Shown here: positions 52,285 through 57,025 of the stretch, piece by piece
How the letters are laid out: each line of letters begins with the position of its first letter
How positions within the stretch are numbered: the first letter of the stretch is position 1
DNA from: Caulobacter sp. NIBR2454
Lineage (GTDB): Bacteria > Pseudomonadota > Alphaproteobacteria > Caulobacterales > Caulobacteraceae
Assembly: GCF_027474405.1 (NCBI RefSeq)
Contig: NZ_CP114871.1
Location: forward strand, 2,303,001-2,367,000
Length of the DNA stretch: 64,000 nt
Reading direction: 5' to 3'
Position numbers and translations under genes: made by a program
The notes under the pieces: model-generated
Told to the model about the DNA's origin: nothing
Database searches by the model: none
What the model saw: the letters and a program-made list of their open reading frames with translations, nothing else

Positions 52285-52764
52285 GTGGGCCAGACTCAAG
52301 CCAAAGCCGAGATTATCCAGGTCCCGAACCTGCTGCGCGCCAAGGTGGGCGGCGGAAATATCGATAAATCGGCCATCGCCAAGGCCGAGGCCGCCTTGCA
52401 GGCTTTGTCGAGCAACTTCGGCCAGTGGCTGCAGGACGAGATCGACAAGCTGGAAGTCGCCCGCAAAAAGATCGACGCCGACGGCATGTCGACCGAAACC
52501 ATCGATGGCCTCTACCTGCGCGCCCATGACCTCAAGGGCCTGGGCTCGACCTACGAATATCCGCTGATCACCCGGCTGGCCGGCTCGCTATGCCGCCTGA
52601 TCGACGAGCCGGAGAAGCGCATGAAGGCGCCGCTCCGCCTGATCGACGCCCACATCCTGGCCATCAAGGCCGCCGTGCGCGACGGCATCAAGGTGGACAC
52701 CCACCCCCTCGGCAAGGCCCTGGCCAGCGAACTGGAAAGCCAGGTCACCCAAGCTCTGGCCTAA
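52285..52764 (+). CDS. Hpt-domain phosphotransfer protein
   Basis: 159 residues, GTG start with GGAGG seven nt upstream. The Hpt signature is RAHDLKGLGSTYEYPLI with H81. A helical N-terminal part (about 28-70) and a C-terminal helix follow the usual four-helix bundle. It ends at an intrinsic terminator, so it is a single-gene unit. Partner kinases could be the hybrid kinases of this window. Confidence 0.85.
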   Translation: MGQTQAKAEIIQVPNLLRAKVGGGNIDKSAIAKAEAALQALSSNFGQWLQDEIDKLEVARKKIDADGMSTETIDGLYLRAHDLKGLGSTYEYPLITRLAGSLCRLIDEPEKRMKAPLRLIDAHILAIKAAVRDGIKVDTHPLGKALASELESQVTQALA

Positions 52765-52790
52765 ATCGTCAAGCTTCGAAGAGCATTCCA

Positions 52791-52815
52791 GGGGACGCTT
52801 CGGCGTCCCCTTTTT
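52791..52815 (+). terminator. Intrinsic terminator after the Hpt gene
   Basis: GGGGACGC-TTCG-GCGTCCCC is a perfect 8-bp stem with a stable tetraloop, followed by TTTTT. Confidence 0.95.
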
Positions 52816-52820
52816 GTCAG

Positions 52821-53282
52821 TCATGCCACCTTCGCCGCTTCGGCCGTGAAGCTGGCGTAGTCCTCGGCGGGAAGACAAGCGGCCGTTCGCCGCCGATATT
52901 GGATCAGCTTGTACCGCGCGATGGCGTACATCCAAGGGGTGAACGGGTCTCGGCGCCGATAGGTGCTCTTGCGCCTATGCGCCGCCGAAAGAGCGTCGAG
53001 TACAAGGCCATCGATAATCTCAGGCCCCCCTGCCAGCCGAAGGGCGAAATACCTTCGCAGCTGTTCCGACATGGCGCCCAGCAGTTGACGGTAGGCCCCA
53101 GCGTCGCCGTCGAGGCTACGCAGCATCAGCGCTTTGAGCGCGCTTTCCCTCAATTGCATGGCCGTGGGCGACACGCGCGAGCTTGAGTTGGAGACTCCGA
53201 AGATGAATGGGCGGCGCTTCCCGTCCGCATTGTCGAAATGCGGGAAGTCATCAATCGATCCCCCAAATCCATTCATTTCCAC
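52821..53282 (-). CDS. Sigma-factor-like protein with region 2 only
   Basis: 153 residues, GTG start at 53282 (ATG at 53276 also possible; no clear ribosome site). Residues about 50-135 match an ECF sigma region 2: SLDGDAGAYRQLLGAMSEQLRRYFALRL, then RRDPFTPWMYAIARYKLIQYRRR. After this the protein ends within 20 residues (LPAEDYASFTAEAAKVA), so the promoter -35 binding region 4 is absent. The next sequence is the terminator of the convergent Hpt gene, so no missing half lies downstream. It could be a degraded sigma, or a protein that binds core RNA polymerase or an anti-sigma factor without DNA -35 contacts. Confidence 0.75.
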   Translation of the reverse strand: MEMNGFGGSIDDFPHFDNADGKRRPFIFGVSNSSSRVSPTAMQLRESALKALMLRSLDGDAGAYRQLLGAMSEQLRRYFALRLAGGPEIIDGLVLDALSAAHRRKSTYRRRDPFTPWMYAIARYKLIQYRRRTAACLPAEDYASFTAEAAKVA

Positions 53283-53400
53283 ATAATATCACACGAAAAC
53301 CAAATCATAACATCGGTTTGTAGGCTTAAGTGCAACAAATCTGTGGATGCCGCGCAGGACGACGGCCGGAAGCCCGGCGCTGTTCTGCAACAGCGCGCGC
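53283..53400 (-). promoter_or_regulatory. AT-rich interval upstream of the sigma-like gene
   Basis: This stretch is much richer in A+T than its surroundings. On the minus strand a TATGAT box (53309-53304) and a TTGCAC (53335-53330) with 20-nt spacing can be read, not a good pair. It likely holds the promoter of the sigma-like gene, but the exact elements are uncertain. Confidence 0.35.
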
Positions 53401-53425
53401 GGGAGTAGTCCGGGACTAAAGAGGT

Positions 53426-53449
53426 AGCCCGCCGACCAGGCGGCGGGCT
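53426..53449 (-). terminator. Hairpin at the end of the RTX gene
   Basis: AGCCCGCCG pairs with CGGCGGGCT (9 bp, six-base loop) and overlaps the stop codon; minus strand continues ACCTCTTTAG, a weak U tract. Plausible terminator. Confidence 0.45.
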
Positions 53450-54729
53450 CAGCCGGCGACGGCGATCAAGCTGGGCGACCCGACGAGAGTGACCTGCACC
53501 TGACCCTCCTCAAGGGTGAACATCAGATCCATTTCGCCATTGTCGTCGGCATCCACCAGAACACCAGATGCGCCGTAAAACCCGCCGCCGATCGGCGTTG
53601 TCGTCAATTCGCCCAAGCTGCCGGTCTGAAGCTCTTTATCCGATACCGTGATGCTGCCGCCCGTGGTGAAGGCATCGCCATTCGCCACCTGGATCACGTC
53701 GCCCTCGGCAGCGTTGAAATCCAGGATCCAGCTGTTCAGCGAAACTTGGACGCCGGCGATCAATTGCTGATGTATCTCAGCCACCAGCTCGGTCGAGAGG
53801 ACGAAGATGTCCGCCCCCTCGCCGCCCTCGGCGGTATCGCCAACCGACACGACCAGGGTGTCATTCCCCTCGCCGCCGCGAAGGATGTCAGCCCCCTCGC
53901 CGCCATCCAGATAGTCGTCTCCGGCGCCGCCCTCGAGCACATCGTCGCCCGATCCGCCGTACAGGTAGTCGTTACCGCCGCCGCCCGACAGCAGGTCGTC
54001 GCCCGCCCCGCCGACCAGGATCTGATCCGCCTCGATGGCTGGGGTTTGGGAGCTCGACGCATGACTCGCTTCCTGTTGAGGCGCGGGAAGCGGGCGAGCG
54101 ACGGAAACGGGGGCCGGCGTAGGGGCGGCGTCACGATCGGTCATCACCAGTTCGACCGGAGCGGACTCGATCAGCGGCTGAACCACCTGATGCGGATTCA
54201 GCGGTCGAAAGGTGTGCTCCGGACGGTCGGCCGGGCGATGCGCCGCCTCCGCCGGAGCGCCTTGTTCACGCGGGGCCGGCTCGACGGCGTTGGTCGGCTC
54301 CATGGCCTTGGCGGCTGCGGGCGCGGCCTCCGCATCCTGCGCCGATAGGAAGAAGTCCGCCGCCAGGACAGCCAGCACCAGGGCCGGCAAAGGGAACTCA
54401 CGACGCGCGGCGGGTGCGCGATCGCTGGAAACGCCCAGCATCCTTTCCACGAGGGATCGCAGGTCAGCGCCCTCCGAAACGATATCTCGATCGGCTTGGT
54501 GAACCACGAATGCGCCCTTGATCCGAGCGACGTGTATCAGCACCTCGTCGGTATCCGGCCGAAAGACGATGAACCAGGGCGCGCCGTCGTCGCTGACGCC
54601 TGACGCGGTTTCGAACGGCAGACCCGATTGCGCCAGATCCGCTCTCAAGCGCAGAAGTTCTGCCTTCTCGCGCGTGCTCCAATCGCCGATGCGTTCGGCG
54701 GCTCGGACGAATTGAACGACGTCCCCCAT
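53449..54729 (-). CDS. Membrane-anchored RTX (Ca-binding repeat) protein with cytosolic N-domain
   Basis: 426 residues. Residues about 1-100 form a compact charged domain with no signal peptide. RAPAARRE then a hydrophobic helix (about 112-130, [18 protein letters not shown]) place the rest outside. A Pro/Ala/Glu-rich linker spans about 131-235. Six RTX nonapeptides follow (239-305: [59 protein letters not shown]) and an EF-hand-like DADDNGEMD at 393-401. RTX proteins are normally secreted by type I exporters; here the order is cytosolic domain, helix, repeats. It is 16 nt downstream of the XRE gene on the same strand. Confidence 0.8.
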
Positions 54730-54744
54730 CTGCTCCTCCGAACC

Positions 54745-55092
54745 CTAGCCGGCGGACGCCGAGCGCGCTTCGCCCGGAAACAGCAGGCGGAAAACGTCAG
54801 GATCGTAGAAGGACAGCAGCATCTTGGCGAAAGCCTGCGGGTCGTGCCCCAAGGCCTTGGCCCAGCTTTCGAAATGCTCGGAGGGCACGCGGCCATAGCC
54901 GCCCTCAACCTGCGAGACGAAGGTGTAGTAGCGCAGGCCCACTCGCTCGGCGATCTCTGCCTGGGTCAGGCCCGCCGCCTCGCGCTGGGCGCTCAGCCAA
55001 CGGCCGGCCGCCTTGCGCGCCAGACGTGAAGCATCGCCCTTCTTCGGGGCTCCGCCTTCGGCTTCTCCGCCCTTGGGTCGCTTGATCGCCAT
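54745..55092 (-). CDS. XRE-family helix-turn-helix regulator
   Basis: 115 residues with a basic N-terminus (about 1-27) and an HTH_3-type domain about 30-90 (LSAQREAAGLTQAEIAERVGLRYYTFVSQVEGGYGRVP). The C-terminal part (about 80-105) is helical (SFYDPDVFRLLFPG). GAGGAG ribosome site precedes the ATG. It is divergent from the small protein gene at 55249 and immediately upstream of the membrane RTX gene; autoregulation through the shared 156-nt interval is plausible. Confidence 0.88.
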   Translation of the reverse strand: MAIKRPKGGEAEGGAPKKGDASRLARKAAGRWLSAQREAAGLTQAEIAERVGLRYYTFVSQVEGGYGRVPSEHFESWAKALGHDPQAFAKMLLSFYDPDVFRLLFPGEARSASAG

Positions 55093-55141
55093 CGATTCAC
55101 TCCTCGTCCCGCGACCTTATCGAGTTCGCATTCCGAAATCT

Positions 55142-55150
55142 ACGTTACGT
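55142..55150. promoter_or_regulatory. ACGT-T-ACGT repeat near the divergent promoter
   Basis: Two ACGT palindromes spaced by one base lie five nt upstream of the -35 of the small-protein promoter. This is a possible operator for the divergent XRE regulator. Not demonstrated. Confidence 0.25.
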
Positions 55151-55155
55151 GAAGT

Positions 55156-55184
55156 TTGACATGATTTTCAAGTTTCAATATTAC
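55156..55184 (+). promoter_or_regulatory. Sigma70-type promoter with consensus -35
   Basis: TTGACA (55156-55161) and TATTAC (55179-55184) are separated by exactly 17 nt of AT-rich DNA. TSS would be near 55191, giving a leader of about 60 nt before the ATG at 55249. One of the best -35 matches in the window. Confidence 0.7.
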
Positions 55185-55248
55185 TGTACTTGCGCGCATC
55201 CAAACCCGGGCGGTCCGCCCTCCTTTGCATCCATAGTGAGGATCAAAA

Positions 55249-55653
55249 ATGAGTAACTTCACCACCATCGACAGCTCGAAGGGCCCTATGTCCTTCGACC
55301 TGTCCCAGTTCAGCCCGGTCAATGTCGGCCAAACGCCGCTTTTGAACCTGGATTGGGCCAAGGCCGCCTTTCTCGCCGGGACCTTCCCCGCCGAAGGCGT
55401 GACCATCGACGGCGTCACCTACAATCTCGTGCCGATCGACCCGTCGAAGCTTGACCTGGGCTTTATCCAAACCGTCAAATCCGGCGACTCCAGCATTATC
55501 AGCTCGGCCGGTTCGGCCCTGCAACCCTCCAGCGAGTCCATCTGGCAGGTTCCGAGCGCCGAGGCCGGCTCGTTCATCGAGCTGAACATGGAAGCGATCG
55601 ACCTCGCAGGCATCGGCTTCGCGTCGGTGGACTTCCACACCTTCACGTTCTGA
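55249..55653 (+). CDS. Small acidic protein of unknown family, C-terminal DFHTFTF
   Basis: 134 residues, Ser/Thr/Gly/Asp-rich, no Cys, no signal peptide and no membrane helix. Composition and the C-terminal DLAGIGFASVDFHTFTF resemble substrates of type I secretion, which carry hydrophobic/acidic C-termini, but no consensus can be tested here. GAGGA ribosome site, near-consensus promoter and a strong terminator suggest high expression as a single unit. I do not recognise the family. Divergent from the XRE gene. Confidence 0.7.
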   Translation: MSNFTTIDSSKGPMSFDLSQFSPVNVGQTPLLNLDWAKAAFLAGTFPAEGVTIDGVTYNLVPIDPSKLDLGFIQTVKSGDSSIISSAGSALQPSSESIWQVPSAEAGSFIELNMEAIDLAGIGFASVDFHTFTF

Positions 55654-55681
55654 TACAACGGGTCGATCAGTAGATCCGTGG

Positions 55682-55712
55682 GGCGGAGCGTCTTCGGGCG
55701 CTCCGCCTTTTT
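55682..55712 (+). terminator. Intrinsic terminator after the small-protein gene
   Basis: GGCGGAGCG pairs with CGCTCCGCC (9 bp) around an eight-base loop, followed by TTTTT ending next to the stop codon of the convergent DUF2336 gene. Confidence 0.93.
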
Positions 55713-56864
55713 CTACGCCGCGCCGACGGTCGCCTTGGACTTGCCCTTGGCCTTGCTGCGCAGGCGATCCAGCTTGCCGAGCAGGTAGTCGGCGTCTTCA
55801 CGTCCCGGAGTTTGCGGCTGGGTCAGAAACCGCTCCAGCATGCGGCGCTGGAAATGCTCCTGGTCGCGCAGGTCGCCGTCGATCTCCAGCGAATGATAGG
55901 CGTCCACGCCCGCCCGAAACGCTCCGTACAGCCGCGCTGGCAAAGCCGCGCGCTCGTAGATCGCCCGCAGGCCTAGTGGCCCGGCATCGTGGATCATCAG
56001 CCAGGTGCGATGGTGCGGCACGCCCGCCAGTTCCGCCATGCCCCACTCGAAGAAGCTCATGTGGCCGTGCGCCAGTCCCCGCAGCAGCAGGGACGGCGTC
56101 AGCCGCCCGCTGAGGTTCAGGTGGCGAACGAAGTCCTTCAGGTCGGCCGCCTGCCCCGCCTGGTCCACCAGGTCGACGACCGCCCGCTCCTTGGTCTGGT
56201 CGATCAGATCGTCCAGCGCGCCGGCTGGCAGCGGGTGCGCCGCCAGCAGATGGGCGCGAACGCCCTCGCTCACCATCTCCACCAGGCGTTCGGTGACCGA
56301 CAGCGGCAGAACACGGCGATAGGCCACGGCGGTCAGGATCGATTCCGCCGCCTCGAAGCGTTTCAGCACCTTGCCCAGGCCGCTTTCGGAAAACTGGGCG
56401 TTGTCGTTGGCGATTGCGGTGCGGACGGCGTCACCGCCGGCGTGCTCGGCCAGGGCGTCGGTGACCTTGGGTGTCAGGGTCGGGCGGCGGGCCACGGCCG
56501 TCTGACGCGCCGTGTCGCCCAGCCGGACGATCTCGGCCAGATCGGCATCCGTGAACGACGGCGACTCCATAAGGATCGGAATGGCGATGGTGTCGACGTC
56601 GCGGGCCAGTTTGTTCGCCACGTCGCGCGGCACCAGGGGCGAAGCCCGCAGGGTCACCGCCAGGGCGCGGCGGACCAGCTCAGCCGCGTCGGCGGCCATG
56701 ACGCGTAGAATCTCCTGAGCCCGCTTGCGGTCCTCGTCGTTCAGGTCGGCGTTTTCGATGCTGCGGCAGATTTTGTGGGCCGCCACGGCGCGCTCGTCCG
56801 GCGTCGCGCCTTTGACCAACATGCGAATATCAGCGTCGGTCAGCGCCCCCCGCGTCGTCGACAT
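55713..56864 (-). CDS. DUF2336 (HEAT-like helical repeat) protein, second copy
   Basis: 383 residues from the ATG at 56864 (GGGGA ten nt upstream; a TTG at 56882 is in frame). Tandem helical repeats like its paralog at 50229: LARDVDTIAIPILMESPSFTDADLAEIVRLGD, ARRPTLTPKVTDALAEHAGG and SMEL-type helix pairs. The C-terminal third (about 270-383) has its own block (HHRTWLMIHDAGPLGLRAIYERAALP) and a basic tail. Same family as the first copy but little shared sequence beyond the repeats. Function unknown. Confidence 0.8.
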   Translation of the reverse strand: MSTTRGALTDADIRMLVKGATPDERAVAAHKICRSIENADLNDEDRKRAQEILRVMAADAAELVRRALAVTLRASPLVPRDVANKLARDVDTIAIPILMESPSFTDADLAEIVRLGDTARQTAVARRPTLTPKVTDALAEHAGGDAVRTAIANDNAQFSESGLGKVLKRFEAAESILTAVAYRRVLPLSVTERLVEMVSEGVRAHLLAAHPLPAGALDDLIDQTKERAVVDLVDQAGQAADLKDFVRHLNLSGRLTPSLLLRGLAHGHMSFFEWGMAELAGVPHHRTWLMIHDAGPLGLRAIYERAALPARLYGAFRAGVDAYHSLEIDGDLRDQEHFQRRMLERFLTQPQTPGREDADYLLGKLDRLRSKAKGKSKATVGAA

Positions 56865-57025
56865 GCCCCTGATCGTCCCCAAATTGCGGCGTTCTACGAT
56901 TCGGAATGATCGTTCAGCATGCTTAACGCTTGGTCACCACATTCTGCTGGGGATTAAGGATGTCCTGTAACACCTCACGAACCACGGCCCACTAGGGTGC
57001 GCGGTTTCTCGGGGGTCCTCAGGGC

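Follow-up and report, generated by a model that had tools for sequence, protein, structure and literature searches.

We analyzed a group of four genes in a stretch of 64,000 nucleotides of the Caulobacter sp. NIBR2454 genome (contig NZ_CP114871.1, positions 2,303,001 to 2,367,000; hereafter, the window), and found that its core is a two-gene module, formed by a XRE-family regulator of 115 aa and an adjoining membrane-spanning partner. As a whole, the locus is probably best explained as one copy, restricted to a clade, of a local switch by which Alphaproteobacteria control surface or secreted proteins. The XRE would bind a GTACAGT-type operator located between itself and a divergent gene for a small protein, the predicted output of the switch, and would thereby repress it. 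The membrane partner, probably co-transcribed with the adjacent XRE, would have its conserved domain in the cytoplasm, followed by a single hydrophobic segment and an outer part (here probably calcium-binding), and it would inform the XRE on the state of the envelope or of an exported product. The fourth gene encodes a protein similar to region 2 of sigma factors. We consider it a maintained SigF-type derivative that is probably no longer an ordinary sigma factor, and that may be a decoy for anti-sigma factors, or just a passenger. The four genes had been grouped in an initial annotation of the window, which regarded them as a calcium-responsive or surface-signalling switch. All four are present as open reading frames (ORFs), by ORF calls and by sequence; that observation is partly confirmed, with the corrections given below, and its interpretation is partly supported. 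The features of the group are the following (positions in the window):

52821-53282, minus strand: sigma-like ORF, region-2-only, related to SigF-type sigma factors (conserved part 52821-53159)
53449-54729, minus strand: membrane partner of the XRE (RTX protein), 426 aa, with N-terminal domain, hydrophobic segment, and an outer part that varies in the family and here carries RTX repeats
54430-54729, minus strand: conserved N-terminal domain of the membrane partner, residues 1-100, predicted alpha-beta5-alpha
54319-54393, minus strand: hydrophobic segment of the membrane partner, residues 113-137 (25 letters), from hydropathy
53800-54012, minus strand: RTX nonapeptide repeats, residues 240-310 (PF00353, expectation value (E) 6.7e-18), with GGxGxD units
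53527-53553, minus strand: EF-like loop DADDNGEMD, residues 393-401, incomplete, from sequence
54745-55092, minus strand: XRE-family regulator, 115 aa (HTH_31 and HTH_3, both under the gathering cut-off)
55154-55204, no strand: intergenic block near-invariant across three species, from alignment
55156-55184, plus strand: promoter of the small gene (TTGACA, 17 nt, TATTAC), from sequence, overlapping the predicted operator
55167-55191, minus strand: predicted XRE operator AAGTACAGTAATATTGAAACTTGAA, from the motif matrix (25.9 bits)
55249-55653, plus strand: ORF of the small protein, 134 aa, predicted output of the switch

The XRE gene lies upstream of the partner gene on the same strand, with a gap of 15 bp. 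Its start and that of the divergent small gene are 156 bp apart, and, contrary to the initial annotation, it does not overlap the divergent promoter region. The same arrangement is common elsewhere. We confirmed 180 loci in genome contigs and kept the best 80, for which almost every record title names an alphaproteobacterium (Candidatus Binataceae in one case). In 64 of these 80 loci the XRE immediately precedes the domain gene on the same strand, in 11 it is elsewhere in the locus, and in 5 we did not find it; the median gap is 29 bp (65 pairs). Across these 65 pairs, XRE and domain distances correlate (r 0.90), which shared descent alone may explain. Among 150 related genomes, compared by hand, 28 (own included) had strong matches to both genes and 120 to neither; the XRE was counted at E < 1e-19, leaving out eleven genomes with only weaker XRE matches. 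The only genome with just the XRE (G087) is a fragmented assembly, and the only one with just the domain (G034) retains a remnant of it that contains two stops. The domain was present in 18 of 385 genomes sampled from the class. The window XRE is one of three strong paralogues in its own genome, the others being located at G000:C1:102499 and 310894.

The putative control of the small protein by the XRE, proposed in the initial annotation, is well supported by an operator-like motif that is found across the family and that here lies over the -10 element. We searched for motifs in 97 non-redundant upstream regions from 14 starts, one of them seeded. The four best-scoring starts (three from random) converged on gTACAGTaatt.cg.aAC or its complement. 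The refined matrix reached 10 bits in 82 of the 97 regions, versus 2.2 in mononucleotide shuffles, an in-sample comparison given that the matrix was trained on the same regions. In a held-out test seeded with GTACAGTAA, the matrix built from the 52 regions outside Caulobacterales reached 10 bits in 24 of the 45 regions from that order, where 0.4 would be expected, and scored the window site at 18.2 bits. Loci L121-L200 contained 94 sites of at least 13 bits, 65 of them near XRE starts (4.7 expected if uniform; dinucleotide shuffles gave 4.4 per Mb), and three of five plasmid loci outside the training set had a site of at least 12 bits before the XRE.

In the window, the motif upstream of the XRE (25.9 bits at 55167) is the sole site of at least 13 bits, and 20 shuffles of the window produced none. 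It falls in a block of about 50 bp in the region between the XRE and the small gene that is almost invariant in three species, and the promoter is conserved in G013 and G024. A search with the A/C-type pattern, allowing one mismatch, found two places genome-wide, this site and that of the cluster-A XRE, both beside XREs of the family; the reversed control pattern found one. Since the operator-like site covers the spacer and the -10 element of the promoter, binding should repress the small gene. The simplest reading, of which the operator part is highly probable, is that the XRE represses the small gene, and perhaps also itself.

The surface-protein context of the proposed switch was backed by the genes next to related modules. 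Using as queries the type I secretion ABC (TIGR01842), HlyD (TIGR01843) and RsaA-like proteins of the own genome, together with large outer-membrane-type proteins, we found secretion or surface-type genes in 52 of the 80 loci: the ABC in 25 (E < 1e-100), HlyD alone in one, a RsaA-like gene without the ABC in three, and autotransporter-like genes in 23 (TIGR01414 for L128). The domain was also present in 57 plasmid records, of which we opened five, and then two more from Methylobacterium. The plasmids from R. rubrum, Ruegeria, Shinella and M. radiotolerans had a helix-turn-helix gene with the domain gene and with secretion, RTX or DUF4214 genes, and the two further Methylobacterium plasmids agree with this context. 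In the own genome, XRE paralogue B shares its locus with a RsaA_NTD gene (E 1.9e-58), and motif sites are found before the RsaA-like gene (17.8 bits), the XRE (13.7 bits) and the Wzm-type gene (15.4 bits) of the surface layer (S-layer)-like locus. This locus (L107; G000:C1:304000-319000) comprises a RsaA_NTD protein, a methyltransferase-like protein, a XRE pair, a Wzm-type exporter, a type I secretion ABC and the three motif sites. In other Caulobacter loci, two tandem GTAYAGCA-type sites 20 bp apart lie between the RsaA-like gene and the XRE (L113 7280, L116 6654 and L120 6585). A second place near the S-layer-type site pattern, with two mismatches, is found at G000:C1:2714130-2714147.

Several observations weigh against the switch as we propose it. 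Fifteen of the 97 upstream regions score under 10 bits, and the reverse of the held-out test is weaker, the matrix trained on Caulobacterales finding 7 of the 52 other regions at 10 bits versus 0.8 expected. The R. rubrum locus L267 has both XRE and partner and no site of 10 bits, and in the Sulfitobacter plasmid (L269) we found secretion genes and no family XRE. By our queries, 28 of the 80 loci had no secretion or surface neighbour, several of these being on short contigs, and the 23 autotransporter-like cases come nearly all from one lineage (20 are titled Phenylobacterium). Related modules often lie next to loci of RsaA-like proteins and type I secretion (RsaA_NTD, DUF4214, PrtD-type ABC), which are their predicted targets, while the putative target in the window is an orphan of 134 aa, and the four-gene locus contains no secretion genes. 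Operator binding and repression are predicted from sequence, and contact between partner and XRE is likewise a supposition. Finally, no motif site precedes the sigma-like gene of the window (best 6.1 bits), which is moreover absent in G013 and kept without the XRE/partner pair in G009.

These last facts favour an alternative to which we give somewhat less than an even chance: that the unit comprises only the XRE, its partner and the divergent target, and that the sigma-like gene merely happens to lie beside them, in a stretch between hpt and spbR whose content varies. The genes do recur together in relatives, a point that the initial annotation had proposed to check, although the group is rare. 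All four are found in G024, in the same order and between spbR and hpt, three (small, XRE and RTX) in G013, and two in G009, one of them a broken small gene. The functional partnership of all four that had been suggested is not supported, given the genomes G013 and G009 and the lack of an upstream motif in the window; hpt also has different surroundings in the other Caulobacter genomes that we inspected. The G009 locus (L074 8753-9470) is a natural partial loss, with a broken small gene, no XRE or RTX gene, and a sigma-like frame still open. The small protein had matches in 5 of the 150 genomes including its own, one of them spurious, so that three genomes and one broken copy are real, and no matches were found in plasmids; its AlphaFold prediction failed (predicted local distance difference test (pLDDT) 34.5). 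Both the sigma-like and the small gene are clade-specific.

Speaking against a mere neighbour, sigma genes of another type accompany the module in Methylobacterium. A full-length sigma gene near the XRE, with a motif site of at least 13 bits at or near its start, was found in all nine Methylobacterium/Methylorubrum loci among the 80, and in the plasmid L270. In addition, genes that by Pfam have only region 2 adjoin the domain gene in one of those nine loci (L179) and on the plasmids L270, L272 and L273. Unlike in the window, they are convergent with the domain gene. The copy in L179 has a 20.8-bit site at its start, and those in L270, L272 and L273 have only 11-12 bits nearby. Because these four cases constitute one lineage, they amount, with the window, to two recruitments of a region-2-only sigma at most. 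The loci L147, L159, L162, L167, L171, L177, L178, L179, L180 and L270 carry EcfG/PhyR-sigma2-like sigma genes whose N-terminus weakly resembles NepR (PF18557, E 0.001 in L270 and 0.015 in L179, both under the cut-off), and which possibly represent anti-sigma/sigma fusions.

The proposed switch assigns to the membrane partner a role as relay, to which its pairing with the XRE and its architecture lend about an even chance. Its N-terminal domain, before the hydrophobic segment, is the best-conserved stretch in the family, and the outer part is variable. Residues W17, G44, D47, P51, W52 and H66 of the domain are conserved across 65 sequences and held by the window protein. In the window protein, the domain has no match in Pfam or NCBIfam; all NCBIfam matches of this protein, and its best Pfam stretch, lie beyond residue 230. 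AlphaFold predicts a confident alpha-beta5-alpha core (mean pLDDT 83; 69 of 106 residues at 90 or above), with no clear match in PDB by sequence or by fold. The annotated N-in/C-out membrane topology is maintained as far as the single hydrophobic segment goes, its orientation being a prediction from hydropathy only. The architecture resembles that of anti-sigma pairs such as FecI-FecR and SigI-RsgI, in which a cytoplasmic regulator is encoded beside a protein with a cytoplasmic domain, a membrane segment and a variable outer part. In the window, however, the DNA-binding member is a XRE rather than a sigma factor, and the N-terminal domain has no family match.

The partner could instead be an exported surface protein under XRE control and no signal relay, which we consider unlikely. 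Its RTX repeats, the DGSxxxLVG-like C-terminal end of many members of the family, and the frequent type I secretion neighbours would fit such a protein. Yet the N-terminal domain is what is best conserved, the outer part varies, with RTX units in just 6 of 32 full-length members, and the pairing with the XRE is near-strict. In these 32 members, PF00353 was the sole Pfam family, and the NCBIfam matches were RTX-type, or SapA in one. The RTX repeats and the EF-like loop described in the annotation are real: the window protein has seven GGxGxD units, forming GGxGxDxxx nonapeptide repeats, and a loop that is incomplete (position 12 is Phe), of a kind present in 4 of the 32 relatives. The calcium responsiveness that had been suggested is not supported, the RTX part being optional in the family; calcium might nonetheless act through this part.

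Regarding the sigma-like protein, Sigma70_r2 (E 3.9e-6, 27 bits, cut-off 24) is the one Pfam family that matches it with E no higher than 1. The conserved part begins at Met42 (about 53159), giving about 112 aa rather than 153. Among ECF sigma factors, it is nearest to SigF-type models, and 54% identical to a full-length copy in its own genome that adjoins a NrsF-like gene (187.7 bits, cut-off 300). Region 4 was described as lacking, and it is absent in all three orthologues (window, G024 and G009), which all stop shortly beyond region 2 and an EDYAxF stretch; the full-length copy shares this stretch (EDYAEF). In the window there is no room for it, since only 56 bp separate the stop from that of the convergent hpt gene. 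Among the six proteins searched with Pfam (the four of the group, Hpt and SpbR), none matched region 4 with E of 1 or below, and a NCBIfam match of the XRE to the region-4 part of SigZ is at chance level (E 0.27). The three copies show pairwise ratios of nonsynonymous to synonymous substitution rates (dN/dS) of 0.21-0.33, which are rough, as dS is 0.9-1.4. The gene is thus not a recent truncation of one strain, and its sequence evolution indicates purifying selection.

A decaying pseudogene, less likely still than a partner that is a surface protein, would account for the missing region 4 and for the changes within region 2. The window copy spans 73 of the SigF-type columns conserved among 28 full-length relatives, and only 32 of these are retained throughout the three copies. 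The changed residues in all three include D51 and Q54, each present in 28 of 28 relatives and belonging to the EDLVQET stretch, which binds core RNA polymerase. The Sigma70_r2 match is under the Pfam cut-off in G024, and the G009 orthologue has no sigma match. Against decay, the frames are open in three species with the low dN/dS noted above, the ends coincide just past EDYAxF, and a third residue, D87, is changed to Q in every copy. We consider it doubtful that the sigma-like protein takes part in the circuit. The protein is related to the SigF-type copy beside the NrsF-like gene, and recalls the SigF-NrsF system of Caulobacter (PMC3511200), but it lacks region 4 and an adjacent NrsF, and its region 2 is changed. 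It also resembles the split sigma factor SigO-RsoA of Bacillus (PMC8103513) in being a region-2-only sigma protein; the proteins of the window locus, however, provide no region-4 match, and residues invariant in the 28 full-length relatives are lost.

That the XRE and a neighbour form a toxin-antitoxin pair is very improbable: in its favour, NCBIfam matches the XRE weakly to an antitoxin model of the Y4mF/HipB type (E 0.00021, 21 bits, cut-off 72); against it, the XRE is found time and again with a protein that has a hydrophobic segment and with secretion genes, and no toxin model of the toxin-antitoxin type in Pfam or NCBIfam matched in the locus.

We found no earlier description of a switch made of a XRE and a membrane partner in the literature. 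The closest regulators are RtrA, RtrB and CdxA and the phage protein TgrL, XRE regulators with several paralogues per Caulobacter genome that act mainly as repressors in adhesin development, and RtrA/RtrB/CdxA recognize a motif with one strong and one weak half-site (PMC10688885). Judged by this description, they are similar to the window-type XREs in having paralogues and in the style of the motif. They differ in that every window-type XRE has a membrane protein as partner and a motif nearby, while the available part of PMC10688885 mentions no such partner. The window XRE had no Caulobacter phage match at E up to 1, in a collection whose inclusion of phiCbK was not checked.

Tentatively, the S-layer, type I secreted and autotransporter proteins of Alphaproteobacteria may be controlled by a widespread and undescribed transmembrane switch, made of a XRE repressor, a membrane partner whose cytoplasmic domain is new, and a GTACAGT operator that they have in common. 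Region-2-only sigmas would have been recruited to it at least twice (SigF-type in Caulobacter, EcfG/PhyR-like in Methylobacterium) as mimics that titrate anti-sigma factors. If so, a single testable rule (operator, XRE and membrane partner) would apply to the expression of S-layer and other surface proteins in many Alphaproteobacteria, an uncharacterised protein domain would be named as the likely relay, and the role of region-2-only sigma proteins could be tested in two unrelated lineages.

Around the group, we identified the following features:

52285-52764, plus strand: Hpt-like gene flanking the group (Hpt 20.1 bits, under the cut-off of 24.6)
55681-55712, plus strand: terminator-like hairpin 3' of the small gene, from sequence, its inner part in the terminator scan
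55713-56882, minus strand: SpbR/DUF2336 gene on the other flank (ORF)

The promoter of the small gene had been called near-consensus, and indeed TTGACA-17-TATTAC matches at 10 of 12 positions by eye; the consensus scan, which requires a final T, did not list it. As for the strong terminator also annotated there, a GC-rich stem at 55681-55708 followed by T5 is visible by eye, of which the scan detects the inner 5 pairs. The region has 3 terminator-like sites, no excess over its shuffles (2.5). The interval next to hpt (52764-55713) varies among Caulobacter species, G037 having what appears by eye to be a nudix-like gene between spbR and hpt, and the others that we inspected having different genes beyond hpt.

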